In this document: positions 1-62,933 of the stretch, piece by piece
Position numbering within the stretch: position 1 is the stretch's first letter
How the letters are laid out: each line of letters begins with the position of its first letter
Assembly: GCA_002842095.1 (NCBI GenBank)
Contig: PHCB01000009.1
Coordinates: forward strand, 133,468 to 197,467
Direction: 5' to 3'
Source: a candidate division BRC1 bacterium HGW-BRC1-1
GTDB lineage: Bacteria > Sumerlaeota > Sumerlaeia > Sumerlaeales > Sumerlaeaceae
Length of the DNA: 64,000 nucleotides
Translations under genes and position numbers: made by a program
The notes under the pieces: model-generated
What the model was told of the DNA's origin: nothing
Seen by the model: the letters and a program-made list of their open reading frames with translations, nothing else
Databases searched by the model: none

Positions 1-176
1 CGGATACCCAGCGCCTCGTCCATCTCGTGGATGGGGAAGGGCGAGTAGGCGTCCATGCGCGCGTAACCTTCCAGCCGTGCAGCGCGAGCCGCGGCCGTCA
101 GCGCCGAGGCGTCTTCGAAACGCGCCGCCATGCCGTGGATGGGAGGTCCCACTGGTTTATGTCCGTGAGCGGTCAT
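1..176 (-). CDS. actD: Alternative Complex III subunit ActD, N-terminal part (truncated by window edge)
   Basis: Reverse translation from ATG at 176 gives MTAHGHKPVGPPIHGMAARFEDASALTAAARAARLEGYARMDAYSPFPIHEMDEALGI, typical of ActD/DUF3341; ATGA overlap with the upstream actC stop. Confidence 0.85.
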   Translation of the reverse strand, partial: MTAHGHKPVGPPIHGMAARFEDASALTAAARAARLEGYARMDAYSPFPIHEMDEALGI

Positions 177-1579: not shown

Positions 1580-1584
1580 GACGC

Positions 1585-4500
1585 TCAGCCCCTCCCTGCA
1601 ACGTGTGATTGAGCGCTTGTGGCAGAGGAGACGCCCGAAGTCATTTCATCGCCATGGGCCGGCGCACCGTGGGGACCTTCACCGTGACTGTTACTCGCGG
1701 GAGCTAAATTCTCTGCCAGCGACGGATGCGGGTTACGCACCGCCGCCATATATGTCGTGCGGGGACGCACGTTCAACTCGGCCAGCATGGCATAGTTCAA
1801 CGGATGCGCTGCGGCCCGTGCGATCTGGCTTTTGCTGTCGTTCAGGTCCCCGAAGACGATGGCATCGGTCGGGCACGATGCCTGACACGCCACCACCACG
1901 TCGCCATCGCGAATCATGCGCCCCTCGTTTTTCGCCTGAATGCGCGCACCGCTGATGCGCTGCACGCAGTACGTGCACTTTTCCATCACGCCGCGCTGAC
2001 GCACCGTAACGTCGGGGTTGCGCACCATCTTCAAGGTCTCTGTGTTCCAATCCTGATACTGCAGGAAGTTGAACCGGCGAACCTTGTACGGGCAGTTGTT
2101 CGCGCAATATCGGGTGCCCACGCAGCGGTTGTAAACCATCGCGTTGAGACCCTCGTCGTCGTGGGTCGTGGCCGCCACGGGGCAGACCATTTCGCACGGC
2201 GCGTTCTCGCAATGCATGCACGGAACCGGCTGGTTGAGAGCGCGGGGATTGTCCGGATCGCCCTCGTAATAGCGGTCGACCCGCAACCAGTGCATCTCGC
2301 GTCCGCGCAGCACCTGGTCGCGACCCACCACGGGGATGTTGTTCTCGCTCTGGCAGGCCGTCACGCAGGCGTTACAGCCGTTGCACAGACTCAGGTCCAG
2401 CGACATGCCCCATTTGTAGCCGTCGTACGCAAATTTGAAATCATGGATACTGATGTCAGCGGTGGCGCCATGCACTTCGCTGGCCGCCGCGAACTTCGGG
2501 TTGGCTTTATACTCCGCCAGCGTCGCCTCGCGCACCAGATCGCGCCCTTCCATCAGGAAGTGGCTTTGCGTGCGCGCCAACTCGTGTTTCTTGCCCGTGC
2601 CCGTGGCCTTGACTCCGGCGACCACATAAGGCGAAGCGAGGGAACGTATCGGATAAACATCCACGCCCACATCGTTGCCCACCTGACCCGCGCGCCGGCG
2701 ACCGAAACCCAGTCGCACCGTCACGCTGTCGGGCGCGTGGCCCGGCGTCAGCATCGCGGGAAGCTCAACCGTGCGACCGCCCACGTCCAGACTCACCACA
2801 TCGCCTTCCTTCACGCCCATACCCTCGGCCGTCTTCGGCGAAAACTCTGCTGCGTTGTCCCACGTCAGGGTCGAACCCGGACGGGGCAACTCCTGCATCC
2901 AGCCGTTGTTGGCGAAACGGCCATCGTACACGGCCGAGTCGGTGCGGAAGATCAATTCCAGCCCGCCGGCCTCGGGCACGCTTACGCGTCCCAGTGCTGC
3001 CGCATCCGCTGTCACCGCGACACCCGCCACTGCGGGCAGGGTCGTGTTTTCGGCAAAACCATTATGCAACGCGCGACGCCACCACGCCTCGAAGTCCGCG
3101 CCTACCACGCCCGCGCCAGCCGTTTTCCAATAGTCGCGCACGAGGTCGTAACCCGTTTTCGCCGGAATGCCGTTCATCAGCGCCATCACTTCCAGCGCGC
3201 TGTGGCCCCCATATAAAGGCGCGATGAGCGGCTGCATCACCGTCACCGTGCCGTCCAGCGCGCGGGCGTCGCCCCACGCTTCCAGCGTGTGCGCCTCGGG
3301 GATGTGCCAGTGGCAATACTCGCTCGTCTCGTCGTTCCAGCCCGAGAGATGCGTCTTCAGCGCCACGCGATCCATGGCCTTCACAAATTCCAATTCCGGC
3401 GGCGCGTTGTACACCGGGTTGCCGCCGAGGATCATCAGCACCTGAACCTTGCCGGCGCTCATGTCATCGGTCAGTTGGCGCAAGGCGGCAAACTGGTCCG
3501 TCGGCTCCGCTTCCAGCGGCTCGCGATATTCCACCGTCGCGCCCGCGTTGCCCAGCGCCGCATTCATGGCATGGGCCAGAGCGTGCAGTGTCGCGGGCGA
3601 TTGCTCGCCGGCCACCACCACGCTGCGTCCGCGTGCGCCCTTCAAATCTTCCACCAGCGCGTTGAACCACGCCTCGGGCACCTGCGCCGGACGGCTCGCC
3701 TCGCCACCCACCGCCACGCCCAAAGCCGCCGCGGCGGCCCGTGCAAACTGTTCCAACACCGACGGCTTCAGCGCCAACCGATGCTCGGCCAGTGTGCCTG
3801 TCGTCGTCGGGTGGCTTTCCACCGCGTACATCCGGTTGGGCGTCACATCGCCGTCGCGCAGCTTGCGTCGCTTGGCGTAGGCCTTGGCGTAATTCAGATG
3901 CCCCGGACCCTCCACCATGAAATCTGCATCCAGCGAGAGAATGACATCGGCCTTTTCAAGCTGCAGCACAGCATCCACCGGTCGCCCAAACGCCGCCATG
4001 GCCCCGGCCCGCGCCGCGTGTCGGCCCGCCGGTTCCCACTGCACCCATTTCGCTGCCGGATACTTGGCGCGGAACACCTTCAACTGGTCTGCCAGCGCGG
4101 GGCTGGTCACGGTCTCCGTGAGGATGCGCACGCCCTCGCCGCCGTTGGCCGCCGACGCCGTCAGCACGTTCGCCAGGTTCTCTGCAAACTCATCGTAGGT
4201 GCGGATGGAACCCAGCCGCGACACCGTGGTCGCCCGGTCGGGATCGTACAGATCCAGCACCTGCGCCGCCAGCATGGCCGTGGCCGCGCCCTGGCTGGCC
4301 GGATGCTCCGGGTTGCCCTCGATCTTCGTCGGGCGGCCCATGTGGCTCTCCACCAACACCGGAAACGCCACGCCACTCAGCAAAACCGCCGTGGCGTAAT
4401 AAAGCGCCTCGCCGGGGATGATGTTCTCGGGCTGCTGCACGTAAGGCAAAATCTTGTTGGCCGACGGACGCGTACACGCCGTGAGCCCCGCCAACCCCAA

Positions 4501-4707
4501 GCTGGCCGCCATCAGCACCATGAACTTGCGGCGGCTTACGGGGTCGATAAACTGCGGCAACTGGCTGGGAAATTCCCGCTCCAGATAATCCTGAAAATCC
4601 GGCGTCTCCGCCAGTTCCTCCAGGCTACGCCAATAACGCCGTCCGCCCACCGACGCCGTGCGACTGCGCGCGGCAACCGGAAGTCCCATGGAGTCTGATC
4701 CGCTCAT
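1585..4707 (-). CDS. actB: Alternative Complex III subunit ActB (fused molybdopterin oxidoreductase-like and 4Fe-4S ferredoxin domains)
   Basis: Fe-S motifs CNGCNACVTAC, CMHCENAPCEMVCP, CVGTRYCANNCP, CTYCVQRI...CQASCP in the C-terminal part; N-terminal SRRKFMVLMAASLGLAGLTAC signal. Start chosen at 4707 because it overlaps the actA stop as ATGA. Confidence 0.9.
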   Translation of the reverse strand: MSGSDSMGLPVAARSRTASVGGRRYWRSLEELAETPDFQDYLEREFPSQLPQFIDPVSRRKFMVLMAASLGLAGLTACTRPSANKILPYVQQPENIIPGEALYYATAVLLSGVAFPVLVESHMGRPTKIEGNPEHPASQGAATAMLAAQVLDLYDPDRATTVSRLGSIRTYDEFAENLANVLTASAANGGEGVRILTETVTSPALADQLKVFRAKYPAAKWVQWEPAGRHAARAGAMAAFGRPVDAVLQLEKADVILSLDADFMVEGPGHLNYAKAYAKRRKLRDGDVTPNRMYAVESHPTTTGTLAEHRLALKPSVLEQFARAAAAALGVAVGGEASRPAQVPEAWFNALVEDLKGARGRSVVVAGEQSPATLHALAHAMNAALGNAGATVEYREPLEAEPTDQFAALRQLTDDMSAGKVQVLMILGGNPVYNAPPELEFVKAMDRVALKTHLSGWNDETSEYCHWHIPEAHTLEAWGDARALDGTVTVMQPLIAPLYGGHSALEVMALMNGIPAKTGYDLVRDYWKTAGAGVVGADFEAWWRRALHNGFAENTTLPAVAGVAVTADAAALGRVSVPEAGGLELIFRTDSAVYDGRFANNGWMQELPRPGSTLTWDNAAEFSPKTAEGMGVKEGDVVSLDVGGRTVELPAMLTPGHAPDSVTVRLGFGRRRAGQVGNDVGVDVYPIRSLASPYVVAGVKATGTGKKHELARTQSHFLMEGRDLVREATLAEYKANPKFAAASEVHGATADISIHDFKFAYDGYKWGMSLDLSLCNGCNACVTACQSENNIPVVGRDQVLRGREMHWLRVDRYYEGDPDNPRALNQPVPCMHCENAPCEMVCPVAATTHDDEGLNAMVYNRCVGTRYCANNCPYKVRRFNFLQYQDWNTETLKMVRNPDVTVRQRGVMEKCTYCVQRISGARIQAKNEGRMIRDGDVVVACQASCPTDAIVFGDLNDSKSQIARAAAHPLNYAMLAELNVRPRTTYMAAVRNPHPSLAENLAPASNSHGEGPHGAPAHGDEMTSGVSSATSAQSHVAGRG

Positions 4708-5387
4708 CGGTGGCATGTTGTACAGGTCACCTTGCTCTGAATATCGTATTCTTCCACCAACTGGGCGCCCAGCGCCTTCTGGTCCACCGCCGTCCACGCC
4801 ATGTTAAACACCTCGTCCTTCGGCCTCACGAAACGCTCCGGCTCGCGGTGGCACTCCAGGCACCACGACATCTGCAACGTCTCGTTCTGGAACATCAGCC
4901 TCATGTCATCCACCTGACCGTGACACGAAGCGCAGCCGACGCCCTTGTTTATGTGCGCGCTGTGATTGAAATAAGCGTAATCAGCCAGACGGTGCACCTT
5001 CTGCCACTCGATGCTCTCGCCCGTGCGGTAACTCTCGCGCACCGGCTCCAGCACCCCGGCCTCGGTCCAAACCTGACTGTGACACGTCATGCAGACGTGC
5101 GTGGGCGGGATGCCGGCATAGGCCGACGTCTCAACATTAAAATGGCAGAAGCGGCAATCGATCCCCAGCCCCGCCACGTGATGCTCGTGGGAAAACGGCA
5201 CCGGCTGGCTGCGCACCACATTCTGATTGGTGTAATAAGGCGACCGATAAAACAACGCCCCCACCGCACCCGCGCCCGCCAACGTAAAGACGCCGATGAT
5301 GATCGACATCCTTGCCAGTGAATTTGCGCTTTTGGAAAAAAGCTGAGTCACGAACCTCTTCCCGCCGTCTTCGAAATGAACTGCCAT
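4704..5387 (-). CDS. actA: Alternative Complex III subunit ActA (pentaheme cytochrome c)
   Basis: Five CxxCH motifs (CRFCH, CMTCH, CASCH, CLECH, CTTCH) plus an N-terminal TM helix; first gene of the act cluster. Confidence 0.92.
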   Translation of the reverse strand: MAVHFEDGGKRFVTQLFSKSANSLARMSIIIGVFTLAGAGAVGALFYRSPYYTNQNVVRSQPVPFSHEHHVAGLGIDCRFCHFNVETSAYAGIPPTHVCMTCHSQVWTEAGVLEPVRESYRTGESIEWQKVHRLADYAYFNHSAHINKGVGCASCHGQVDDMRLMFQNETLQMSWCLECHREPERFVRPKDEVFNMAWTAVDQKALGAQLVEEYDIQSKVTCTTCHR

Positions 5388-24633: not shown

Positions 24634-27009
24634 TCAACCGCACTTGCTGAAACCGCAGGAACGGCACGTCATGCAGCCTTCTGCCATCTCCAGGTTGCTG
24701 CCGCACTCGGGGCACGCCGGGGTGGAACGCCCGCTGCTGATGGTCGGGCCCGTTGCCTTACCCTCGATTACCAGCTTCACGCCCGACGAGGCCATGCCGG
24801 ACGATGCCGTGAGATGCAGCGGCACGTGGGCGCCGTTGTCGGCGACCAGCGTAAGGCGTCCGCTGGCGGCCAGGCCAGCCAGACTGGCGGCGTCGCCTTC
24901 CACGCGGTAACGTTTCACCAGCGGGTCGTTGGTGGCGCTACCCACGGCCACGCCACCGGCGCTGATACCCACCGAGGCTCCGCCCACCGTGAGGCGCAAA
25001 CCCGTGGGGGTAAGCTCGGCCGCCGAAACGCTGTGGCCACCGTTGCCGTTACCATTGGCGGCCTTGCTGTTGCCGTTGCCATTGCCGTTACCGTTCGATT
25101 TAACCACAGCCGATGCCTCAACCTTGGACTCTTCCTTCTTGCCCGAGCCAAGGTTCAGCACCTGGATGTCGCGCGATCCGTCGCGGTAAATCGTGGTGCC
25201 TTTGCAGCCCTTCTTGTAGGCGAGGATGTAGACCTCGGCCACGTCGTCGCGGGTGGCGCTGTTGTTGAAGTTAACCGTCTTGCTGACCGCATTCTCGCAA
25301 TGGCGCTGGAAGCCAGCCTGATGCTCAAGATGCCACAGGGGCGAAATGTCGTGGGAGGTGACGAAGACCTGGCGCACGTCCTCGGGCACATCGGCGATGG
25401 ACTCGACGCCGCCGTGCATCGCCACTTCCTGCATGAGAGTCTCGCTGAAGAACCCGCGGGCCCGGGCGACCTCCTCGAAGAAGGGGTGCGCCTCCACCAG
25501 CGTGGCGCCGTCGAGCACCTTGCGGTGGAAACAGAGCGCGAAGAGCGGTTCGATGCCACTGCTGCAGCCGGCGATAATCGAAATCGTACCCGTGGGGGCG
25601 ATCGTCGTCACGGTGGCGTTGCGGCGGGGGACGCCGTTGTTGTACCAGGCGTGGTCCGCATCGCAGAACGCCGATTGCGCATGGTTGCCGAAGGCACCGC
25701 GCTCGCGCGCCAGCTCCTCGGAAGCCCGCGCCGCGTGCTCGTTGATGAAACGCATCATGCGCTCGCCCAGCGCCACGGCCTCGTGGCTGCTGTAGGGGAT
25801 GCCCAGCATGTAGAGCAGATCGGCAAAGCCCATCACGCCCAGACCAATCTTGCGGTTGCCGTGCTTCACGATGTTCGTGATGGCCGGCAGCGGGAAATCC
25901 GACATCTCGATGACGTTATCGAGGAAGCGAATCGACAGCTCCACGCGGGCCGCCAGCTTCTCCCAGTCGATGACCCAGCAGGTGCCGTCGTGCATGGGGT
26001 TGCGCGAGGTGTAGCCGTCGGCGGTCAGTTCCACCGGGCCGGGGGTCTCACTCACCACTTCGCGGCGGGTCATCAGGGCCAGGTTCAGGCTGCCCAGGTT
26101 GCACGCCTCGTAGGGGAGCAGGGGTTGCTCGCCGCAGGGGTTCGTGCTTTCCATGGGGCCGACCTGGGGGGTCGGGTTGTCGCGGTTGATGCGGTCGATG
26201 AAAACGATGCCGGGATCCCCGTTGCGCCAGGCGTTGTCGACCATCTTGTCGAACACCTCGCGGGCGTTGAGCGTGCCAACCACCAGACCATTCTTCGGGT
26301 TCACGAGGTCGTAATCGCTTTCCGCAAGCACGGCCTCCATGAACTTCTCGGTCAGGGCGACGGAAATATTGAAGTTGGTGACCGACGTCATGTCGGCCTT
26401 GCACTCGATAAACTCAAGAATATCAGGGTGATCCACGCGCAGGATGCCCATGTTGGCTCCGCGACGGGTGCCGCCCTGCTTCACAGCCTCGGTGGCGGCG
26501 TTGAAAACTTTCATGAAGGAGACGGGGCCGCTGCTGATGCCCTTGGTGCTGCGCACGCGGTCGTTCTTGGGGCGCAGGCGCGAGAAGGCAAAACCAGTAC
26601 CGCCGCCGGTCTTATGGATAATCGCGGCATGCTTCACCGCGTCAAAAATAGAGTCGATGGCATCCTCAACAGGAATAACAAAACAGGCGCTTAACTGCTG
26701 GGGACGGCCTTTACCAGCATTCATCAGGGTCGGGGAATTCGGCATGAACTCGCAGGACGCCATCAACTCGTAATACTGCTGTCGCACTTCTTCGAAACGA
26801 GCACGGTCAGCATTGAAATTCAACTCGCCCTCGGCGATGTTCGACGCGACACGCCACACCAACTCGGTGGGCGTCTCTATCGGTTCCCCGGAATCATTTT
26901 TGATCAGGTAGCGTTTCTCGAGAACGGTAACGGCATTCGGACTGAAAGAGGGCTCGGGAATGGACGACACGTCTGGACGCGTCGAATTGTGGATGGTCTG
27001 CACCGACAT
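24634..27009 (-). CDS. nrdJ: adenosylcobalamin-dependent ribonucleoside-diphosphate reductase
   Basis: PNSPTLMNAGKG, SACFVIPVEDAIDSIFDAVKHAAIIHKTGGGTGFAFSRLRP, NPCGEQPLLPYEACNLGSLNL, ATVTTIAPTGTISIIAGCSSGIEP; C-terminal zinc-finger-like CPECGSNLEMAEGCMTCRSCGFSKCG. Confidence 0.93.
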   Translation of the reverse strand: MSVQTIHNSTRPDVSSIPEPSFSPNAVTVLEKRYLIKNDSGEPIETPTELVWRVASNIAEGELNFNADRARFEEVRQQYYELMASCEFMPNSPTLMNAGKGRPQQLSACFVIPVEDAIDSIFDAVKHAAIIHKTGGGTGFAFSRLRPKNDRVRSTKGISSGPVSFMKVFNAATEAVKQGGTRRGANMGILRVDHPDILEFIECKADMTSVTNFNISVALTEKFMEAVLAESDYDLVNPKNGLVVGTLNAREVFDKMVDNAWRNGDPGIVFIDRINRDNPTPQVGPMESTNPCGEQPLLPYEACNLGSLNLALMTRREVVSETPGPVELTADGYTSRNPMHDGTCWVIDWEKLAARVELSIRFLDNVIEMSDFPLPAITNIVKHGNRKIGLGVMGFADLLYMLGIPYSSHEAVALGERMMRFINEHAARASEELARERGAFGNHAQSAFCDADHAWYNNGVPRRNATVTTIAPTGTISIIAGCSSGIEPLFALCFHRKVLDGATLVEAHPFFEEVARARGFFSETLMQEVAMHGGVESIADVPEDVRQVFVTSHDISPLWHLEHQAGFQRHCENAVSKTVNFNNSATRDDVAEVYILAYKKGCKGTTIYRDGSRDIQVLNLGSGKKEESKVEASAVVKSNGNGNGNGNSKAANGNGNGGHSVSAAELTPTGLRLTVGGASVGISAGGVAVGSATNDPLVKRYRVEGDAASLAGLAASGRLTLVADNGAHVPLHLTASSGMASSGVKLVIEGKATGPTISSGRSTPACPECGSNLEMAEGCMTCRSCGFSKCG

Positions 27010-35559: not shown

Positions 35560-38500
35560 ATGCACCCCGTTGAACAGTATCTGAAGAACCTCTCCGAGAT
35601 TCACTGCACCGGGGGCGCGACGGCGGAGACCTCCTATTACGCCCGACTCGAAACGCTGCTCAACGAAGTCGGCGCAAAACTCAAGCCCAAGGTCCGCGCC
35701 GTCGCCCAACTCGCCAACATGGGCGCGGGTTCGCCCGACTTCGGACTCTTCACCGCCAATCAATTCCAGAAAGCCAAAGACGACAAGCCCCTCAAAGGCG
35801 TGCCACCCGAGCGCGGCGTTGTCGAAGTCAAGGGCTGGACCGACGATTCATTCGTCACCGCCAAGACGGAACAAGTCTCTAAATACTGGAAACACTATGG
35901 GCTGGTGCTCGTCACCAATTACCGCGATTTCGTGCTCATCGGCCGCGACGAAGCCGGCCAGCCGCTCCGCCTTGAAACCTACCGCATGGCCGATTCCGAA
36001 AAAGAGTTCCGCGTCCTGCTGGCCCATCCGCGTAAGGCCGCCGACACGCAGGGTGAACGGTTGCTCGAATTCCTGCGCCGCGTCCTGCTCTACGAGGCCG
36101 CCCTCACCAACCCCGAAGACCTCGCCTGGTTCCTCGCCTCCTACGCTCGCGAAGCCCGCCACCGCGTCGAATTCTTCGCCACGCTACCAGCCCTCGACGG
36201 TCTGCGCAAGGCGCTCGAAGAGGCCCTCGGCATGACCTTCGAGGGCGACAAGGGCGAGCACTTCTTTCAGGCGACGTTTGTCCAGACCCTCTTCTATGGC
36301 ATCTTCTCCTCGTGGGTTCTCTGGTGCCGCGAACACCAGGGCCAGCCCAACACCCCCTTCGACTGGCAGAAGGCTGCATGGACTCTCCACGTGCCCATGG
36401 TAAAAAGCCTCTTCGACCAGATAGCCACCCCCACCAAGCTGAAACCGCTGGACATCGAAGAGGTGCTCGACTGGGCCGGGGCCGCGCTCAACCGGGTGGA
36501 CCGCACCGCCTTCTTCGCCAAGTTCGAGGAAGAGCACGCCGTCCAGTATTTCTACGAGCCTTTCCTCAATGCCTACGATCCCGAATTGCGCAAGGAACTC
36601 GGCGTCTGGTACACCCCGCCGGAAATCGTCCGCTATCAGGTCGAGCGAGTCGACCGTGTCCTGCGTGAGGAATTGAACCTACCCGACGGCCTGGCCGACG
36701 ACAACGTCGTCGTGCTCGATCCCTGTTGCGGCACCGGCGCCTATCTGGTCGAGACGCTCAAGCGCATCCACAAGACGCTCAAAGAGAAAGGCGGCAGCGC
36801 GCTGACGGCGCAGAAACTCAAGACCGCCGCCATGAAACGCGTCTTCGGCTTCGAGATACTTCCCGCGCCATTCGTCGTCGCGCACCTACAGCTCGGCCTG
36901 ATGTTGCGCCAACTCGGCGCGCCCCTCGATCACGACACCGACCAGCGCGCGGGTGTGTACCTGACCAACGCCCTGACCGGCTGGGAACCACTCAAAAAGC
37001 CCAAGGACGAAATACCCGGCCTCTATCCCGAACTGAGGGAGGAGCGCGACGCCGCCAATAAGGTGAAGCAGGAAGCCCCGATCCTCGTCATCCTCGGCAA
37101 CCCTCCCTACAACGGCTATGCGGGCTTTGCGATGGAAGAGGAGCGCGACCTCGTGACCGCCTACCGCACGACCAAGCGCGCGCCCAAACCCGAGGGTCAG
37201 GGGCTTAACGATCTCTACATTCGCTTCTTCCGCATGGCCGAGCGCCGCATCGTCGAAAAGTCAGGCAAAGGCGTGGTCTGCTATATCTCCAATTACTCCT
37301 GGCTCGAAGGCCTCAGCCATACCGGCATGAGGGAGCGGTATCTGGAAGTATTCGACCGCGTGTGGATTGACTGTCTCAATGGCGACAAATACAAGACGGG
37401 CAAGCTAACTCCCTGGGGCGAATCCGACCCGAGCATCTTCTCCACCGATTCAAACCGCGAAGGCATTCAGGTTGGGACGGCGATCAGCCTGCTCGTTCGT
37501 AAAGAGAAAGGCGCCATGAAAGACGGCCTGCGTTGTGGCGCTCCCCGGTTTCGCCATCTCTGGGGCAAGGCCAAGCACGCCGAGATTCTCCGCAACGCGA
37601 CCGGACAGGAGAAGGCAAAATACGAATTGCTCTCGCCCTCAGTAGAGATTGGCTATCCCCTGATGCCTGCCCAAGTGGATGCAGGGTATTTGACATGGCC
37701 GCAACTGCCCAAGCTCTTCCCTGTTTCCTTTCCCGGAGTGAAGACCAGCCGCGACGAGTTTCTCGTGGACATCGACCGCGCGGCTCTTGAAGAGCGCATC
37801 GGCGCTTACTTTGATCCATCCCTGTCCCATGAAGAGATCGCCCGCCGTTGGCCATCGGTCATGGAGGAACGTGAACAATACAAGGCCCGCAAGATTCGAG
37901 ACTACCTCGTACGGCGCGGCCGCACAAAAGGCCATATCGTCCGCTATGCCTATCGCCCTTTCGACGTGCGCTGGCTCTATTGGGAACCGGAAACAGATTT
38001 ACTCGATCGAGAGCGCAGCGAGTATTTCCCGCAGGTATTCGAGGGGAATTATTGTTTGGTTTCCCAACAGAAACCACGAAGGGATTGGTCACGCCCGCAA
38101 TGTGTTATGCCCATTGGCTGCCTTGATCTTTTTGATCGAGGCGCAACCTGCTTTCCTTTGCTTGTTCGACAAGGCCACTCCGCCAATGATCTATTCAGTA
38201 TGGAGGCAGAGGAAAATCCGCCAAATGCTTCTCCTCTTCTTCAAGAATACTCAAAGCAATTTCCTGCTTCGCCTGATCTGGTGTTTCACCATGCAATAGC
38301 GATAATGCACGCGGCAATCTACAACCAAAACAATGCTGGTGGGCTTCGCCAGGACTGGCCGCGTATCCCGCTCCCCGCGAAGAAGAAGGCTTTGCTCGAT
38401 TCCGCCGCGCTGGGCCGCCGCGTCGCTGCGCTGCTCGACACCGAGAAACCAGTCGATGGCGTGACCTGCGGCAAGATCGACGCACGGCTGAAGCCGCTGG

Positions 38501-38919
38501 GCGTGATCCGCAAGGCAGGTGGCGGTGCACTCGACCCCGGCGCGGGCGCGCTGGAGCTGACGGCGGGCTGGGGACATGGCGGCAAGGGGGGTGTCTGCAT
38601 GCCCGGACGGGGCAAAGCCGAAGAGCGAGAGACAAAAGACGAAGGGCAGACAAAAGCCTTTGGCGACGCGACGCTCGACATCTATCTCAACGGCGAGGCG
38701 TATTGGGAGAACGTGCCTCTGGCCGTGTGGGACTACACCATCGGCGGGTATCAGGTGATCAAGAAGTGGCTGAGCTACCGCGAGAAAACGATGCTGGGGC
38801 GCGGCCTGACGATGGAAGAAACCGAATACGTAACTGAAATGGTCCGCCGCATCGCCGCGCTGATCCTGCTCCAGCCCGAGCTTGACGCAAACTACCAAAC
38901 CGTCAAAGCCGAGACCTAG
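35560..38919 (+). CDS. single-chain Type IIG / Type ISP-like restriction-modification enzyme (N6-adenine methylase plus N-terminal PD-(D/E)xK-like domain)
   Basis: N-terminal GAGSPDFGLF...GVVEVKGW; VVLDPCCGTGAYLVETLKRI; catalytic ILGNPPYNGYAGF; ISP-like C-terminus LVFHHAIAIMHAAIYNQNNAGGLRQDWPRIPLP. Confidence 0.85.
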   Translation: MHPVEQYLKNLSEIHCTGGATAETSYYARLETLLNEVGAKLKPKVRAVAQLANMGAGSPDFGLFTANQFQKAKDDKPLKGVPPERGVVEVKGWTDDSFVTAKTEQVSKYWKHYGLVLVTNYRDFVLIGRDEAGQPLRLETYRMADSEKEFRVLLAHPRKAADTQGERLLEFLRRVLLYEAALTNPEDLAWFLASYAREARHRVEFFATLPALDGLRKALEEALGMTFEGDKGEHFFQATFVQTLFYGIFSSWVLWCREHQGQPNTPFDWQKAAWTLHVPMVKSLFDQIATPTKLKPLDIEEVLDWAGAALNRVDRTAFFAKFEEEHAVQYFYEPFLNAYDPELRKELGVWYTPPEIVRYQVERVDRVLREELNLPDGLADDNVVVLDPCCGTGAYLVETLKRIHKTLKEKGGSALTAQKLKTAAMKRVFGFEILPAPFVVAHLQLGLMLRQLGAPLDHDTDQRAGVYLTNALTGWEPLKKPKDEIPGLYPELREERDAANKVKQEAPILVILGNPPYNGYAGFAMEEERDLVTAYRTTKRAPKPEGQGLNDLYIRFFRMAERRIVEKSGKGVVCYISNYSWLEGLSHTGMRERYLEVFDRVWIDCLNGDKYKTGKLTPWGESDPSIFSTDSNREGIQVGTAISLLVRKEKGAMKDGLRCGAPRFRHLWGKAKHAEILRNATGQEKAKYELLSPSVEIGYPLMPAQVDAGYLTWPQLPKLFPVSFPGVKTSRDEFLVDIDRAALEERIGAYFDPSLSHEEIARRWPSVMEEREQYKARKIRDYLVRRGRTKGHIVRYAYRPFDVRWLYWEPETDLLDRERSEYFPQVFEGNYCLVSQQKPRRDWSRPQCVMPIGCLDLFDRGATCFPLLVRQGHSANDLFSMEAEENPPNASPLLQEYSKQFPASPDLVFHHAIAIMHAAIYNQNNAGGLRQDWPRIPLPAKKKALLDSAALGRRVAALLDTEKPVDGVTCGKIDARLKPLGVIRKAGGGALDPGAGALELTAGWGHGGKGGVCMPGRGKAEERETKDEGQTKAFGDATLDIYLNGEAYWENVPLAVWDYTIGGYQVIKKWLSYREKTMLGRGLTMEETEYVTEMVRRIAALILLQPELDANYQTVKAET

Positions 38920-42428: not shown

Positions 42429-44105
42429 TCACAAACCCGTCTTGGCCTTGTTTTTCCAGGGGCCGGTGCTCAGGGCGTTGCGTTGTTCCGGGGTCAGGGC
42501 GTTTTCGCTGAAGAGGGCTTGTCCGACGGTGCCGGCGGCTCGCGAGGCTTCGATCTGTTCGATCAGGCGGTCGGCGCTGAAGCCCAGGAACGGGCCCAGG
42601 CCCACCATGATCGGGGGCTTCTGGCCGATGATTTCCAGCGCTTCCCGCGTCACGTTTTCCACGCCCTTGGCGTCGGGGCGGTAGGCCATCGTGCAGACCA
42701 GATCCAGCCAGCCCTTTTGCGACCACCTGAGCCAGTTCTGGTGTTTGCCCGTCACCGATTCCTCGGGGTCGGGCACCACGGCGGCGGATACCACAATGCC
42801 CGGGCGCGCGGCGTGCAGACGCGAATGGGCGGCTTGCACGAAGCTCGTCACGCGATCCTCGCGCCAGGTATTCCAGCGCGCCCACAGTTCCTTGTCGCGT
42901 TTCGGGTCCAGCTTGCGCGGGTCGGCGCCGGCCTCCGCCTTGAAGGTTTTTCGGCAATAGTCGCAGTAGCAGAAACCGTCGTCGGGGGTGACCGCGCCGG
43001 GATAGCGGATGTAGTCGAGTTGCACGCCGTCGAGTTCATACGCCTTCGCCAGCCCTTCCAGTTGGCGCAGCAGGAACTCGTGCACCTCGGGCCGCGCGGG
43101 GCAGACGTAAAAGAAGTTCTCCTCGGTGTTGGCGTTGCGCCGCCCCAGACGGTCCAGCGCCAGCCACTCGGGGTGCATGGTCAGCAGGCTGGGTTCCCCG
43201 TCCTGAATTTTCGGCGGGCCTATGAAGAAGATTTCGCACCACGCGTGAATCTCGATGCCGTGGGCGTGGCCCTCGTCGATCATCGTGCGCAGGGGGTCGG
43301 TGCCGCGGTGGCCTTTGTGCTGGGGCATTGAGTCGGCCTCAACAGGCGGGTTGATGGTTCGGCTCCAATAGATGGTCTCGGGGAAAAGCATGTTGGCGTT
43401 CAGCGCGCGGGCGCTCTCAACGGCCTGATGGGCCGACTTCGGGTTGTCGCGGTCGAGGCGCAGCCACAGCGCGCGCCCTTCCGTGGTGGGCGACGCCACG
43501 GCGGCGTAGCTGACGGCCCGGGCCAAAACCACAGCCTCATCGAGCATCGGGCGCGCATCGGCTTCCTTCGTGCCGGCTGCCAGAGCGGCGCTGGCTTTGG
43601 ATACCAGCTCCCGCGCCAGCGCGGCGGAGGTGGCCGCGTCACCCTCGGGCTTGGGCGATTTCGCCAGAAGCTGCTCCGCCTGATAAACGAGGGACTGGGG
43701 CGTGATACGCGCCAACACCCGCTTGCCCTTCACAGATACCTCGGCCCCCACGGGCATGCAATCCAGCACCCATTCGGCGCCCTCGCCATGGCCAGACACC
43801 ACAAAACCGTCGGCGGGGATGGGCGAATCGTTGCCATCGATCGACACAACCACTCCGGCGCGCACCACGGATTCGGCCCCGTAGGGGTTCGTGCCGGTGG
43901 ACGTGCTACCGGAATCGGGGGTGTACAACACCAGGTCGTTCTCGCCGCGACCACCCGGGTAGGTGCGATCGGTGGGATTGGTCTTCGTAATGATGGTTGA
44001 AGTTGTGGCGCCGCTTGAAACTGCGGTCGCTGGAGGGGCCGCAAACGTGAGTGCCGCCGTGAGAAGAAACACCGTACCCGCCGCCAGTAAACGAAAACGC
44101 ACCAT
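42429..44105 (-). CDS. glycoside hydrolase-like GHL10 (DUF187-type) secreted protein
   Basis: Signal peptide; ANMLFPETIYWSR, HGIEIHAWCEIFFIG, YELDGVQLDYIRYPG, VSAAVVPDPEESVTGKHQNWLRWSQKGWLDLVCTMAY motifs. Confidence 0.85.
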   Translation of the reverse strand: MVRFRLLAAGTVFLLTAALTFAAPPATAVSSGATTSTIITKTNPTDRTYPGGRGENDLVLYTPDSGSTSTGTNPYGAESVVRAGVVVSIDGNDSPIPADGFVVSGHGEGAEWVLDCMPVGAEVSVKGKRVLARITPQSLVYQAEQLLAKSPKPEGDAATSAALARELVSKASAALAAGTKEADARPMLDEAVVLARAVSYAAVASPTTEGRALWLRLDRDNPKSAHQAVESARALNANMLFPETIYWSRTINPPVEADSMPQHKGHRGTDPLRTMIDEGHAHGIEIHAWCEIFFIGPPKIQDGEPSLLTMHPEWLALDRLGRRNANTEENFFYVCPARPEVHEFLLRQLEGLAKAYELDGVQLDYIRYPGAVTPDDGFCYCDYCRKTFKAEAGADPRKLDPKRDKELWARWNTWREDRVTSFVQAAHSRLHAARPGIVVSAAVVPDPEESVTGKHQNWLRWSQKGWLDLVCTMAYRPDAKGVENVTREALEIIGQKPPIMVGLGPFLGFSADRLIEQIEASRAAGTVGQALFSENALTPEQRNALSTGPWKNKAKTGL

Positions 44106-44308: not shown

Positions 44309-44475
44309 CTCGCGCATTATTTGCATCATGGGTCGGACTAACGGAAAGCGGTGTGAATCCGCTGCGAGTCCGTCGCCGTAACCGGAGACAAACGCCACAC
44401 CAATGCCACTGGGCTTCACGCCCGGGAAGGCGCGGCGCGAGGTTGACCCGGAAGCCGGAAGACGAGTTCGAAACC
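44309..44475 (+). promoter_or_regulatory. cobalamin (AdoCbl-type) riboswitch
   Basis: CGGACTaacggaaAGCGGtgtgaatCCGCTgcgAGTCCG (44334-44372), CCGTAACCGG, B12 box GCCACTG (44405-44411), GGGC-ttcac-GCCCGGGAAGGCG, GTTGACCCGGAAGCCGGAAGAC: consensus order of the cobalamin riboswitch. Boundaries approximate. Confidence 0.9.
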
Positions 44476-44513
44476 CACAACATTATTCCTTCGAGACCAA
44501 GGAGAATTGAGCC

Positions 44514-45191
44514 ATGCGCACTCCGGCGGATGTCGGATTCACGCTCATTGAACTGCTGGTGGTGGTGGCGATCATCGCCATTCTGGCGCTCATCGCGACG
44601 TTCAACATGCGCCACGCAGTGGAGCGTTCGCTGCGCGCAGCCGACGCCGCGAACCTTCACACCATCGCCACGGCGCTGCAAACGTACATGGTGGACCACA
44701 ACACGCTGCCCCCGGGCGACCGCGAGGCGGGGCCGTTCACGTCGCACGATTTCAGCAACACGTCCATCGGCAACGGCCCTGCGGCGGGCGGCTCATGGGA
44801 CGGCCTGCCTTGGTTGCTGGTCGAACAGCGCTATATCAGCGACTGGAAAACCATGTTCTGCCCCAAGTACCTGCGCCTGTATAAAGGCGGCAAAACCATG
44901 AAGAACGACAACCCCCGGTATCACAATTTTCGGTACGCCTACAACAGCTCGGCGCTGTCGAGCGGCGGCCACGCGGGAGGGTCCGGCATCATGACTGGCA
45001 CCCAATGGCTGGTGCGCGATCTGTATCTGCCCCCCCGCAGCGGGTGGTACGGCCAGAGTTATCCGAACTTCCCGGCGGATTACACGTACCCGTGGGGCGA
45101 AGGGGAATGGGAAAATAAGCTGGAGCTGGCCATATACGCAGACTTCGGCGTAAAGCTGATGGTGGGCGGCACGGATAAACCGGCGCCGTGA
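44514..45191 (+). CDS. type IV pilin / type II secretion pseudopilin-like protein
   Basis: Prepilin peptidase site and helix MRTPADVG|FTLIELLVVVAIIAILALIATFNM; globular C-terminus of unknown function; RBS AAGGAG upstream. Confidence 0.88.
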   Translation: MRTPADVGFTLIELLVVVAIIAILALIATFNMRHAVERSLRAADAANLHTIATALQTYMVDHNTLPPGDREAGPFTSHDFSNTSIGNGPAAGGSWDGLPWLLVEQRYISDWKTMFCPKYLRLYKGGKTMKNDNPRYHNFRYAYNSSALSSGGHAGGSGIMTGTQWLVRDLYLPPRSGWYGQSYPNFPADYTYPWGEGEWENKLELAIYADFGVKLMVGGTDKPAP

Positions 45192-45300: not shown

Positions 45301-48156
45301 TTACCTCGTGGAGATTGCGGGGCCGAAGCCGGGGGGCGGGGGGGCAGGGGTGGACTGGGGTGCGGAGAAAGCATCATCGCTCTTAGGGTTGCTTCTGCCT
45401 TCGCGGGAACTACGGGCCATAACGGGTTGCCCGACCTTCACGGCGCCGGGATCGGCGCGCCGCACGCTGGCACGACCGTTCTGGTTGGCGCCGGCATCGC
45501 CCCGGCGGACCGACGCGCCGGAGCCTCCCGAGGGGGACTTGTCATCGCCGGGCTTAATCACCTCTCCGTCGATAATGACTTTCCCGTTTAGCTGTGCTGT
45601 GTCGAAAGCCGATTTCCTCAACACCAGACGCACCCCGTTTTCCACATTGGGTCGAGCGCCTTCATAACCCGGCGCCGGTTCGTCTATCTCTACGAGTTTG
45701 ATAATGCGCCACCCTTTGGCGGTCTTGATGGGCTCACTCACCATCCCCGGTTTCATGTTCACGAGGGCTTCGGCCATCTCGGCGGTGATGGGCGAATGGG
45801 CGTCGATCCATCCGATATCGCCCCCCCGTTCCTTGCTGGGTGCCTCGCTCAGTTGGGAGGCAAGCTGCGAGAAGTCCTCGCCTTTTCCGGCCTTTTTCGC
45901 CACGTCGCTCAGTTCATCCTTGGCGCCGTCGCCCGCCTTATAAATCTCCTGCACGTGCAATCGGCGGCTGGCTGCGAAGTGGTCGGGATTCGCCTGATAC
46001 ACTTCGCGCAGTTTCTTTTCGTCGAAGTTTTTCTGATACGCGATTTCGATAAACTTTTCTGCCAGGGCAGAGTCGCCCATTTCCGCCATCATTTCAGCCT
46101 CGGTCATACCGGCGTTTTTAAACGTTTCTTCAAACTTGGGGCCGATACGTTTCTTCAGTTTGTCGCGGTAGGCCGCTATTTCGGCATCGGTCAGCGTCAC
46201 GCCCTGACGGCGCGCTTCCGAGGCGATGGCGGTCTTTTCCGCCCAGTCTTGCTTGATGAAGCCGGCCATTTCCACGCGCGTGGCTTCGTCGGCGTTGGCG
46301 CGTCCGCGCAGCGCGAGGGCTGCTTGCACACGCTTGTTGATGTCTTCTGCGGTGAGGGAACGGTCATCAACCTGTGCGCCCTGCTGGGCCACGGCGGCGG
46401 CCAGGGCAGCCGTGGCACTGAGGCGTTTGGCCACCTCGGGCGGGAGCGCCGCTACCTGCTCGGGCGTAAGGGCCGCGGCTGGATCGCCGGGCTTGGCGCC
46501 ACCGAGGGCCGTGGCGAGTTGGTCGCCATCGGGGTTGAAATTGGGCGTGGGAGAAGGTTGGGCGGTGTTCGCCATCACCGGAGCGCCGGGGGCGGCCGGA
46601 ATGCCGGTAGTGGCAGGACCAGCCGGGACAACCGGCGCAGGCGGCGGCGGCTCCCCTGCGTGAATTGCCGCCCGGATTTCAGGCGGAAGCTGGGGCAGGG
46701 GCGACGCAACGCTGGAGCTGGTGCCGCCATCGGGTGCCTCGTCGAGGGTGCGCAGCCCTCCGCGGGCGTTGGAAATGGTGACCTGCGCACCGGACCGCTC
46801 GATGGTGAGGGCCGTGGTGCGGGTGGCGGCCGGATCGGATGGGGCGGTCGCGCCGGATATTGCGCCGGTGGCCGCTTCCGGGTCATCCACCACGACACGG
46901 GGTTTGGTGGCTCCCGGGGGGGTGGGGGCGGAATAGTTCGACATGGCCGCCGCCAACTCAGCGGAGGCAGGGGTGTTGCGTCCCGGTGGGGTGACGGCGG
47001 CATTGCCGTCCAGCGGTGGCAGTTCCATTTGCGCATCCATTAGTCCGCCGGCAGCGGGCGTGGAGACGGGCAGAGGTTTGCCCAGTTGAGGCTGCGACAC
47101 GCGCACATCCGGGCTGGTGCCGGGAGCGGGGGGAACGGCGGACCACGGAGTGGCCGTAACAGGAGGCACGGTGGCGGGCATTTCGATGGGCAACTCGGCC
47201 GGTGCCAAGGCATCGGGCGTGGGGCCGGGGGTGCCCATCATGGGCGGGAGGATGGGCCGGTTGGGGTTCCCCTCCACGGACGGCCCCTGAGGCGCGCCGG
47301 GGTCATGATCCACGGGGTTTTGCGGCGAGCCCCAGCGGGGCAGTGATCCGGGAGGAAGGGCGGCATCGGGCAACGTGGCGGGCATATCGGAGGAGTTGCC
47401 ACCCATGTTGGTTTGGATGGGCAGGGGCCCGGGTCTGGGGGTGGGCTCGCTCATTCTGCTCGGGCCGGTCATGCTCACCGCCCCGGCGGATGGCGCATTG
47501 CTCGCAGTGGAGGGATCGAGCACCCCCCGGGGCACCGCAAAACCGGGGACAACACCGGTTACTGAAGCTGGTGTGGCGAGAGGTGGTGTGGCAACAATTT
47601 CAGGCTCGGAAGTCTGCGTGAGGGCCGCAGCGGAACGGGCCTGATAGGCACTGAGCGCCTGATCGAAGGCATCGCCGCTGGCTGCGGGAGTCGAGGCTGC
47701 GCCCGGGTCGGAGGATTGCAGGGTCGTGGGGGCCACCGAGGATGCGACCGTTCCCGGTTCCACGTCGGCTTCCACGGCGAGAATCTGTGTGGGCGCGCTT
47801 GCCTGGGTCATGGGTGTGGCGGCCACCACGGGCACAGCGCGGGCGGCCAGTTCGGGGGGTGGCATGGGCGATGAGGAGGGAGACGCGGTGGCGCGGGAGG
47901 TAACCGGTCTCGCTGTGGGCGCCGGTGTGACAGCGCCGGCGGGAACACGCGCACCCATCGGGGAGCGGCCATCGGCGGCTCCGCCTTGCAGCGACATGAT
48001 GGCCCGTTGATCCGCCGCAGCCATGGCGGGGTCCGCCGCCACGGACGGACCGGACGAGCGCGACCGTCCCTGCATCAGCAGCATTGCGGTGATGATGCAA
48101 ATCAGGATTCCGCCGCCCAGCAGCGCCAGATTAAAATTGCGATTCTTGCTCTTCAT
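45301..48156 (-). CDS. membrane-anchored SurA/PpiC-like peptidyl-prolyl isomerase with long Pro/Ala/Thr-rich linker
   Basis: N-terminal TM; ~550 aa low-complexity region; C-terminal ASRRLHVQEIYKAGDGAKDELSDVAKKAGKGEDFSQLASQLSEAPSKERGGDIGWIDAHSPITAEMAEALVNMKPGMVSEPIKTAKGWRIIKLVE parvulin domain. Confidence 0.82.
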   Translation of the reverse strand: MKSKNRNFNLALLGGGILICIITAMLLMQGRSRSSGPSVAADPAMAAADQRAIMSLQGGAADGRSPMGARVPAGAVTPAPTARPVTSRATASPSSSPMPPPELAARAVPVVAATPMTQASAPTQILAVEADVEPGTVASSVAPTTLQSSDPGAASTPAASGDAFDQALSAYQARSAAALTQTSEPEIVATPPLATPASVTGVVPGFAVPRGVLDPSTASNAPSAGAVSMTGPSRMSEPTPRPGPLPIQTNMGGNSSDMPATLPDAALPPGSLPRWGSPQNPVDHDPGAPQGPSVEGNPNRPILPPMMGTPGPTPDALAPAELPIEMPATVPPVTATPWSAVPPAPGTSPDVRVSQPQLGKPLPVSTPAAGGLMDAQMELPPLDGNAAVTPPGRNTPASAELAAAMSNYSAPTPPGATKPRVVVDDPEAATGAISGATAPSDPAATRTTALTIERSGAQVTISNARGGLRTLDEAPDGGTSSSVASPLPQLPPEIRAAIHAGEPPPPAPVVPAGPATTGIPAAPGAPVMANTAQPSPTPNFNPDGDQLATALGGAKPGDPAAALTPEQVAALPPEVAKRLSATAALAAAVAQQGAQVDDRSLTAEDINKRVQAALALRGRANADEATRVEMAGFIKQDWAEKTAIASEARRQGVTLTDAEIAAYRDKLKKRIGPKFEETFKNAGMTEAEMMAEMGDSALAEKFIEIAYQKNFDEKKLREVYQANPDHFAASRRLHVQEIYKAGDGAKDELSDVAKKAGKGEDFSQLASQLSEAPSKERGGDIGWIDAHSPITAEMAEALVNMKPGMVSEPIKTAKGWRIIKLVEIDEPAPGYEGARPNVENGVRLVLRKSAFDTAQLNGKVIIDGEVIKPGDDKSPSGGSGASVRRGDAGANQNGRASVRRADPGAVKVGQPVMARSSREGRSNPKSDDAFSAPQSTPAPPPPGFGPAISTR

Positions 48157-60377: not shown

Positions 60378-60638
60378 GGGGACGAACGCAGCCTCCTGCG
60401 GCAAACGGGCATTGAAGAAACAGCATTAAAAGCCCAACCGCCGCACGGTGGGAATTGCAAGGCGAGTTTGAGGAAGCGGGAGAAAAGCAGGAGGGTTGTT
60501 TAAAGGGAATTTCCCCGGGATAGGCCGGAGAAACCGAAATCCCGAATTCAGAGCCTCCGGTGGTGGACTCGTTTCGGGTTGCGAATCGGGGGGTGGGGAG
60601 GCGACTTTAGTTGTAACGTTTTTTCCGAGGGACATTTT

Positions 60639-62933
60639 ATGCGACGTTTTTTCCGGGCGCTTGCTGCGCTTGCCATGCCGCTTTGCTTTATGGCGGCTCC
60701 GATATCTGCCGGGGGGCAAACGCCAGAGGTCCGCGCCATCTGGGCGTCGCGATTTGAATGGCCCAGTTCCAACCAGACCACGGCGAAGGCGAACATCGAC
60801 CTGATGATGCAGCGCGCCAAGGACAACAACTTTAACACGGTCTTCTTTCAGGTGCGCGGCGAGTGCTCGACCCACTATCCTTCACCGGATGAGCCCTGGG
60901 CCTCAACTTACGGATACACCAACCCCGGTTGGGATCCACTGGCTTATGCCATCAACGCTGCCCACGCGCAGGGGTTGAAGCTTCACGCCTACATAAACAC
61001 CCACGTGTTTACCTCCAGCGGAGCCACTCCTCCTGCATCCACCACGCCACAGCATCCGTATAATGTTCACGGGCCCTCTGCCACCGGAACCAACACCTGG
61101 GCATTGACAGACGATCTGGGCGACAAATCGGCCACCGATAGCTACTACTGGATTTCTCCCGGCCACCCGGGGGCCAGCGAGTGGACGCGCCGCCAGATTA
61201 TGTACGTCGTGAAAAACTATGACGTCGACGGCATCCATCTCGACCGCATCCGCACGCCCGGCACCAATTACAGCTACGACGCAACCACCGTGAACCGGTT
61301 CAACGGAGCGGGGAACCCTGACAGCCTCGGATGGGCGGATTTCATGCGCAGCCAGATCACCCGTGACCTGCGCCACCTGTACGGCGAAATCCAGTACTAC
61401 AAACCCAACGTGCTACTGTCGGCGGCGCCTTTTGGCATCATGTACAAAGATGCCACCACGAACTATCAGGGCACGGGGACACAAGCCTATCACAGTTGGT
61501 ATCAAGACGGTTGGGGCTGGATGCAGGCGGGAGCCGTGGATTTTATGGTGCCGCAGATCTACTGGCTTGTGGGAAGCTCGCACCCGTTTGAAGATTTACT
61601 GGCCGACTGGCAGGACCATCGCTACGGGCGCTACGTTGTGCCCGGCAGCACCACAAGTGGTGGCTCGGTTTCGGTCGCCGCCATGCTGGCCATGACCGCC
61701 GAAAGCCGCAGCCAGGGCGCAAAGGGCCACACGATCTTCTCCTACGGCAGCATGACAAATTACTGGAACGCCTACAAGACCGGCCCCTACGCGCAGACGG
61801 CGGCCTTTCCTGACATGCCGTGGAAGACCACGCCAACCAAGGGCACCATCATCGGCTACGTGAAAGATGGCCTCGGCAACCCGGTGCTGGATGCGCTGGT
61901 TACGCAACCCGGCGATACGACGAAATATCTCTCGGCAAGCGACGGGCTGTTTGCCATTCTGAACGTGACGCCCGGCACAAACCTGTCGGTAACCGGCTCG
62001 AAGTCCGGAGTGGGCACGGCAACCGCCACGTCCATCAGTGTAACCGCCGGCGGCACCACGCTGGTTAACATCACCCTCGGAGTGACGAGCGCGGGTCAGG
62101 TGGAACTGGACAAGACCAGCTACGGCTTTGGAGCCCTGGTGGGCATCACAGTGAAGGACTCTGATCTGACAGCGCCGACCATAAGCGTAAACGCCAAAAC
62201 CAATGCCACACCGGCCGGGGTAGCCGTAACACTTAACCAACTATCTTCGGGCGTTTACACCGGATCCGTGGGGCTGAAGAATCCGGCGGACGCGACTGCT
62301 TCGGATCCCCTGGGTGCAACGGCAGGCGACACAATCACCGTTACCTACAACGACGCAGATTCCGGAAGTGGCTCGCCCGCAGTCGTGACAAAAACAGCGA
62401 CAATCACCAATCCTCCCAACATCATCCTCGAAAGTCGTAACAGCTCGGGGGGCCTCACGCCCAGCCCTGATTATGTGGAGTGGGCACCGTCGGGTTCAGA
62501 CTTTGCCAACAGCACCGCCAAAAGCACAGCACCGGGCCTCTCGGGCACGGGCAGCCGTTACATTGGTGAAGGCAGCCAGGGTTGCTATGCGGAGTTCACC
62601 TTCCCGGTGGAAAACCGCGCATTTTATGACCTCCAGATAACTCTGGGCTCTGGCACCAATCACAACTCGCCCGGTGCCAGCTACCGTCTCCAGCAGGCCG
62701 GCCACGCCGACGTAACCGGCACCTTTGATCTGTCACGCTTTACCACGGGCCTGGTCAATGACTGGTACGGTCTACACTCTGGCGTTCTGCTGGACCGCGG
62801 CACGGCGGTGCTCCGCATCACCAATAACAACCCGTTATCCGCAGGGTCGGGTGAGCGCTTCAACATGGATGCGGTGCGGCTTCAATATGAGATTCACGCG
62901 CCCGTGGCCCTCAGTAGCTTCAGTGTGGAATAA
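60639..62933 (+). CDS. GHL10-type glycoside hydrolase-like protein with C-terminal Ig-like/carboxypeptidase-regulatory-like domains
   Basis: Signal peptide; EVRAIWASRFEWPSSNQTTAKANIDLMMQRAKDNNFNTVFFQVRGEC, GLKLHAYINTHVF, YDVDGIHLDRIRTPG; GTIIGYVKDGLGNPVLDALVTQ. Confidence 0.85.
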   Translation: MRRFFRALAALAMPLCFMAAPISAGGQTPEVRAIWASRFEWPSSNQTTAKANIDLMMQRAKDNNFNTVFFQVRGECSTHYPSPDEPWASTYGYTNPGWDPLAYAINAAHAQGLKLHAYINTHVFTSSGATPPASTTPQHPYNVHGPSATGTNTWALTDDLGDKSATDSYYWISPGHPGASEWTRRQIMYVVKNYDVDGIHLDRIRTPGTNYSYDATTVNRFNGAGNPDSLGWADFMRSQITRDLRHLYGEIQYYKPNVLLSAAPFGIMYKDATTNYQGTGTQAYHSWYQDGWGWMQAGAVDFMVPQIYWLVGSSHPFEDLLADWQDHRYGRYVVPGSTTSGGSVSVAAMLAMTAESRSQGAKGHTIFSYGSMTNYWNAYKTGPYAQTAAFPDMPWKTTPTKGTIIGYVKDGLGNPVLDALVTQPGDTTKYLSASDGLFAILNVTPGTNLSVTGSKSGVGTATATSISVTAGGTTLVNITLGVTSAGQVELDKTSYGFGALVGITVKDSDLTAPTISVNAKTNATPAGVAVTLNQLSSGVYTGSVGLKNPADATASDPLGATAGDTITVTYNDADSGSGSPAVVTKTATITNPPNIILESRNSSGGLTPSPDYVEWAPSGSDFANSTAKSTAPGLSGTGSRYIGEGSQGCYAEFTFPVENRAFYDLQITLGSGTNHNSPGASYRLQQAGHADVTGTFDLSRFTTGLVNDWYGLHSGVLLDRGTAVLRITNNNPLSAGSGERFNMDAVRLQYEIHAPVALSSFSVE

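Follow-up and report, generated by a model that had tools for sequence, protein, structure and literature searches.

The textbook route of vitamin B12 across the outer membrane is the receptor BtuB powered by TonB, and ordinary porins are too narrow to pass free B12. Competence pili offer a precedent for a (pseudo)pilus and a secretin moving a substrate inward across the same membrane, and pilin genes are commonly controlled by riboswitches of the c-di-GMP class. Among known systems, those closest to the locus reported here are the cobalamin-riboswitch operons of Bacteroides thetaiotaomicron, which carry BtuG1 together with BtuB and BtuFCD; BtuG1 is itself a fusion of BtuG and BtuH, and both halves bind cobalamin (PMC12751083). 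In Geobacter, a cobalamin riboswitch precedes biosynthesis genes, not a pilin (PMC13194489). In the literature library searched, no paper was found on a pilin controlled by a cobalamin riboswitch or encoded within a B12 operon, and the genome paper on the Sumerlaeota (PMC8092238) makes no mention of B12, pili, or TonB in its main text.

The DNA considered here is a 64,000-nucleotide stretch (the window) from a bacterium of this phylum, in which an earlier note, made from the sequence alone, had pointed out a cobalamin riboswitch directly controlling a lone prepilin-like gene. The gene is compared below with its relatives in 40 genomes of the same phylum and 14 of a second one, and the comparison argues for a role in B12 acquisition.

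The Riboswitch–Pilin Locus

The features of the window on which the argument rests are the following, the last one lying apart from the others.

44343..44463 (+): cobalamin riboswitch aptamer, a Rfam covariance-model match (RF00174, model positions 47-167)
44487..44504 (+): candidate hairpin sequestering the Shine–Dalgarno (SD) sequence, TCCTT (44487-44491) with AAGGA (44499-44503), from predicted leader structures
44514..45191 (+): 225-aa prepilin/pseudopilin of the B12-operon family, from PF07963, TIGR02532, and the alignment of the C-terminal domain family
44538..44699 (+): hydrophobic helix at the N-terminus of the mature pilin (residues 11-62 in the AlphaFold model)
24634-27009 (-): class II ribonucleotide reductase, adenosylcobalamin-dependent (cut-offs of NF006417 and TIGR02504 exceeded)

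When the whole window was searched with RF00174, the segment 44343-44463 (+) scored 75.7 bits (E 7.7e-17) against a gathering score of 31.5, which bears out the riboswitch recognized earlier from the letters. The match takes in the B12 box GCCACTG as well as the expected helices and is the only riboswitch found in the window; from its sequence, it is predicted to bind cobalamin and to control expression. The aptamer ends 50 nt before the prepilin ATG, with no intervening gene, and the SD sequence AAGGAG (44499-44504) lies 9 nt 5' of this codon. Since the downstream neighbour (45301-48156, a PpiC-type isomerase) is convergent, the prepilin unit is monocistronic at this locus. The ribosome-binding site, the direct adjacency, and the single-gene unit described in the earlier note are thus all confirmed. 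The SD-covering hairpin, together with similar CCTT...AAGG hairpins 3' of the riboswitch in two relatives (G036 and G037), suggests translational control of the prepilin. We infer a regulatory role for the TCCTT/AAGGA hairpin of the window; because the stability of the folded leader is close to that of shuffled sequence (z about 0), this role is suggested only.

The prepilin itself matches both Pfam N_methyl (PF07963, residues 8-28) and the NCBIfam prepilin cleavage/methylation model TIGR02532 above their cut-offs, so that the cleavage site proposed for the 225-codon reading frame holds and cleavage is predicted at G8|F9. With E13 as position 5 of the mature protein, the class III signal (G|F, E5) followed by a hydrophobic helix makes the protein prepilin-like, a member of the type IV filament superfamily. 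The C-terminal domain is conserved and family-specific, with the conserved stretches GNGPAAGGSWDGVPWLL and NFRYAYNSSA. AlphaFold confidence is low across much of this domain, and neither its sequence nor its fold matches a solved structure; the helix alone finds matches (best E 0.41 by fold). A scan of genome contigs with the prepilin mostly picked up the general N-terminal pilin motif, the sole close match being a Sumerlaeota record (53% over residues 7-79). Identity with the major pseudopilin GspG was considered and rejected, TIGR01710 reaching 32.8 bits, over the N-terminal part only, against an equivalog cut-off of 88.85. The term filament, used previously for the structure to which the protein might belong, is not retained here, as the protein may act as a minor pseudopilin without ever being built into a long pilus.

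Several other genes of the window can be mentioned in passing. At 173-4797 (-) lies a fused molybdopterin/iron–sulfur oxidoreductase, a TAT-variant and QrcB/QrcC-like, which adjoins a multi-helix membrane protein; together, the two resemble a portion of alternative complex III. The region 42429-44105 (-) codes for a GHL10 glycosyl-hydrolase-like protein (PF02638), and the N-terminal half of a larger protein at 60579-62933 (+) is similar to it by eye. The 1119-aa protein encoded at 35560-38919 (+) shows the DPCCGTGAYLVE / NPPY pattern characteristic of N6-adenine DNA methyltransferases, seems to stand alone, and has no NCBIfam match at E 1e-10.

Distribution and Genetic Linkage of the Pilin Family

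The family was defined by an HMM (alignment A2, 15 rows with the window protein among them) restricted to the C-terminal domain, which keeps the widespread N-terminal motif from driving its matches. Exactly one copy is found in 36 of the 40 genomes of the phylum, and all 20 near-complete ones (at least 90% complete, at most 5% contaminated) carry it. In the window's own genome, the HMM gives E 2.7e-84 for the window protein, itself a row of A2, and no second match. Outside the phylum, one matching genome was found in a set of 291, most of them from other phyla; in the second phylum, to which that genome belongs, the family is present in 13 of 14 genomes. The window prepilin belongs to the family on two counts, by its single-copy match to A2 and by its linkage to a cobalamin riboswitch or B12 genes. 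A tree of 44 rows, 43 of them distinct, places it inside a group of 17 with 100/100 support whose other members come mostly from different families of the class, and five members of its genome's own family form a separate 100/99 group. This conflict between pilin sequences and family grouping suggests transfer or differential loss. The pilin of G002 (L183) likewise groups with those of other families and not with its own.

Within the phylum, 28 of the 36 pilins lie downstream of a same-strand cobalamin riboswitch, seven of them without an intervening gene (G000, G013, G014, G023, G036, G037, and G039); by a rough binomial estimate that treats genomes as independent, the chance of such linkage is about 6e-77. 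No riboswitch was found near the pilin in G002, G016, G022, and G033, and the pilin of G002 adjoins a BtuF gene. The pilins of G008, G009, and G018, also without a linked riboswitch, follow genes for secreted proteins S1, S2, or S3 (see below) near contig ends. Upstream of the G008 pilin lies an Acido-Lenti-1 RNA (RF01687, an sRNA family of unknown function; L224, 600-646, -). In the second phylum, a cobalamin riboswitch stands directly before the pilin at 9 of 14 loci (L267, L287-L300), with 84-169 nt between its end and the prepilin motif at the loci measured. As a control, a prepilin motif occurs within 1.5 kb of none of 12 cobalamin riboswitches from other phyla. The earlier note named absence of the riboswitch–prepilin pairing from all close relatives as grounds for refutation; the pairing is present there and recurs in two phyla.

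The linkage extends to the genes of the inner-membrane B12 importer. In seven genomes (G013, G021, G026, G029, G031, G032, and G035), the riboswitch operon comprises the pilin with BtuF, BtuD, and/or BtuC; these units carry BtuF, and most of them also have BtuD and BtuC, 3' of the pilin. The genes of the G031 operon overlap head to tail and give matches to Pfam Peripla_BP_2 (PF01497), ABC_tran, and FecCD; among B12-specific NCBIfam models, BtuF fits the binding protein best. The order riboswitch, pilin, BtuC, BtuD is seen in the second phylum at L294 and L296, and at L267 riboswitch and pilin are followed by a CobT-like gene. The window locus is itself devoid of BtuF, BtuD, and BtuC; the genome encodes its own BtuFDC elsewhere (L232), where no riboswitch was found.

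The description of the pilin gene as lone is correct for the window locus but not for the genome as a whole, which has three cobalamin riboswitches. The two others control S1 and S2, the usual partners of the pilin, with which it shares one operon in relatives. A joint operon S1-S2-pilin behind one riboswitch is seen in G010, G019, G024, and G028, whereas G001, G003, G004, and G005 have the genes split into riboswitch-S1 and riboswitch-S2-pilin. The window locus holds the third member of this conserved set, which in this genome is dispersed. Across lineages, the pilin is constant while the secreted partners vary.

Secreted Partners and Their C-Terminal Tag

The secreted partners fall into several unrelated families (S1, S2, S3, S4, and S5). 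Those of the window's own genome, each under its own cobalamin riboswitch, are S1, with 367 aa and a repeat-like sequence from which we infer a beta-propeller, and S2, with 266 aa. S3 appears to have BNR-like repeats, and S4 is a PQQ-type propeller (PF13360). Sequence profiles of S1, S2, and S3 found no solved relative, that of S2 none in the PDB. The AlphaFold model of S2 is of medium confidence (mean pLDDT 72); its best PDB match is 8blw_B, the lipoprotein BtuGH of the B. thetaiotaomicron BtuB1-BtuG1 complex (E 4.2e-5, probability 1.00), followed by the B12-binding lipoprotein BtuH (7biz, E 2.7e-4, probability 1.00), so that a similarity to the BtuH fold is found, with a low TM-score (TMq 0.39). 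Judged by this model, S2 looks like a B12 binder.

A C-terminal W-x-x-[YF] tag is present on 52 of the 56 riboswitch-controlled secreted partners, which represent at least four unrelated families; the W-x-x-aromatic form occurs on 5 of 312 background ORFs and on none of 54 pilin or Btu proteins. Its consensus is W-x-L-[YF]-E-stop, with neither a hydrophobic segment nor a basic tail. That the tag might be special to B12 proteins was rejected, as it is found genome-wide in several relatives. At the DNA level, W-x-x-[YF]-E-stop has 33 sites in G012 versus 7 for the reversed pattern, and in six genomes 30 of the 42 sites checked end ORFs of 150 codons or more. Many tagged ORFs encode long secreted multi-domain proteins (L242-L286, e.g., L272, L277, and L284 in G012). 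The tag is rare in the window's own genome, with 3 sites, 2 of which are credible protein ends; an example of the tag there is L199/L233 (C2:329831). The tag has the look of a sorting or secretion signal that has not been described before and that lacks a hydrophobic anchor.

Uptake and Assembly Machinery

The ribonucleotide reductase encoded in the window depends on adenosylcobalamin, and the organism therefore needs B12. No TonB plug (PF07715), and thus no BtuB/TonB-type receptor, was found in its genome, which is 94.8% complete. Plug domains are absent from 36 of the 40 genomes of the phylum, this one included, and present in the other 4; in the second phylum, 7 of 14 genomes have them. Most of these receptor-bearing genomes of both phyla still keep the pilin. 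A strict substitution of BtuB by the pilin was rejected, because some pilin carriers also encode TonB plugs. Secretins are encoded in all 40 genomes of the phylum and FecCD permeases in 39. The window's own genome has three secretins, one of them clustered with PilM and PilO, and PilM, PilO, and PilQ-type genes are all represented.

Proposed Role and Alternatives

That the pilin serves B12 acquisition is well supported. The earlier suggestion of a B12-responsive surface or secretion apparatus tied to corrinoid capture or uptake has gained substance from the pairing in two phyla, the operons with BtuF, BtuD, and BtuC, and the secreted partner resembling BtuH and BtuGH. The protein is probably a (pseudo)pilin dedicated to the step of this acquisition at the outer membrane, with an inward role preferred. 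When intracellular cobalamin is scarce, the riboswitch would permit translation of the prepilin, probably by exposing the ribosome-binding site, and a prepilin peptidase would trim the product. A type IV pilus or type II secretion machine, for which machinery genes are present, could then build a pseudopilus beneath the outer-membrane secretin. Pseudopilus and co-regulated secreted proteins would serve the outer-membrane stage that is elsewhere the task of BtuB and TonB, and B12 would be passed on to the BtuFCD importer, to which the pilin is genetically linked in relatives. In the preferred version, the pseudopilus would help to bring B12, or a B12-loaded capture protein, inward through the secretin. 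This direction is preferred because the pilin occupies the position that other B12 operons give to BtuB, because it stays constant while its secreted partners change, and because in the second phylum it can sit directly between the riboswitch and BtuC/BtuD.

A pseudopilin made under B12 scarcity could instead work in a type II secretion-like machine that exports the capture proteins to the cell surface, with B12 entering by other means. This version draws its support from the terminal tag shared by the partners, as would be expected of unrelated families using one export or anchoring route, and type II export of surface proteins with C-terminal sorting tags is known (GlyGly-CTERM: PMC13393428, PMC6219818). 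However, the tag is also carried by many proteins without a B12 link, which would need export even when B12 is plentiful, and a pilin repressed by B12 can therefore not be the general exporter; an exporter would also have to be reconciled with a pilin that is constant and cargoes that differ between lineages. On balance, export as the main task seems unlikely. The pilin could also belong to a surface filament, as its subunit or its tip, and there display or itself bind corrinoids while playing no part in translocation, an idea that goes back to the earlier note. Its conserved, family-specific C-terminal domain would agree with this, but the domain offers no fold evidence for corrinoid binding, and a single-copy pilin would be doing what separate binder-like proteins are already there to do, which makes such a scaffold improbable. 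Finally, an ordinary type IV pilin or pseudopilin may have acquired B12 control by coincidence, e.g., for attachment switching, as pilins are often under riboswitches of other classes (c-di-GMP), but the pilin is present in one copy per genome and, in several lineages across both phyla, linked to BtuF, BtuD, BtuC, and surface binders, which leaves this hardly credible.

Under the preferred inward role, movement of B12 through a secretin by the pilin, if real, would define a new class of importer. We propose only tentatively that a starvation-induced pseudopilus, a secretin, and tagged surface binders take up B12 together across the outer membrane, free of BtuB and TonB; that this importer would serve diderm phyla mostly without TonB-dependent receptors is, in the same way, conceivable rather than expected. 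The finding bears on how bacteria with an outer membrane and no TonB receptors get B12, since it provides, in two phyla, a single-copy and near-universal candidate gene for the outer-membrane step, together with its regulator, its likely partners, and an inner-membrane importer. It also extends the list of cobalamin-riboswitch targets. If the inward role is true, the import of a small cofactor would be added to the tasks of type IV filament machines; if binders are exported, the pilin would be one of nutrient-regulated secretion.

Comparison with Known Systems

The cobamide-uptake operons of B. thetaiotaomicron are similar in their cobalamin riboswitch, their surface B12 binders, and their co-operonic BtuFCD (PMC12751083), the last an arrangement found here in relatives and not at the window locus, and the model of S2 resembles their BtuH and BtuGH. 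They differ in that a pseudopilin here takes the place of BtuB, with no TonB plug in the window's own genome, and in the C-terminal W-x-x-Y tag of the secreted partners. With the type II pseudopilins GspG and GspH and the type IV pilins, the window protein shares the prepilin cleavage motif and the long N-terminal helix. Unlike them, it has a C-terminal domain that matches no solved pilin by sequence or fold, falls far below the equivalog cut-offs, and is tied genetically to B12 genes. Competence (DNA-uptake) pili are a functional analogy only, as what would be taken up here is a cofactor or the protein that binds it rather than DNA. The tag of the secreted partners recalls GlyGly-CTERM, MYXO-CTERM, and PEP-CTERM in being a short C-terminal signature on many unrelated secreted proteins, but W-x-L-[YF]-E is set apart from these by having neither their hydrophobic segment nor their basic tail.
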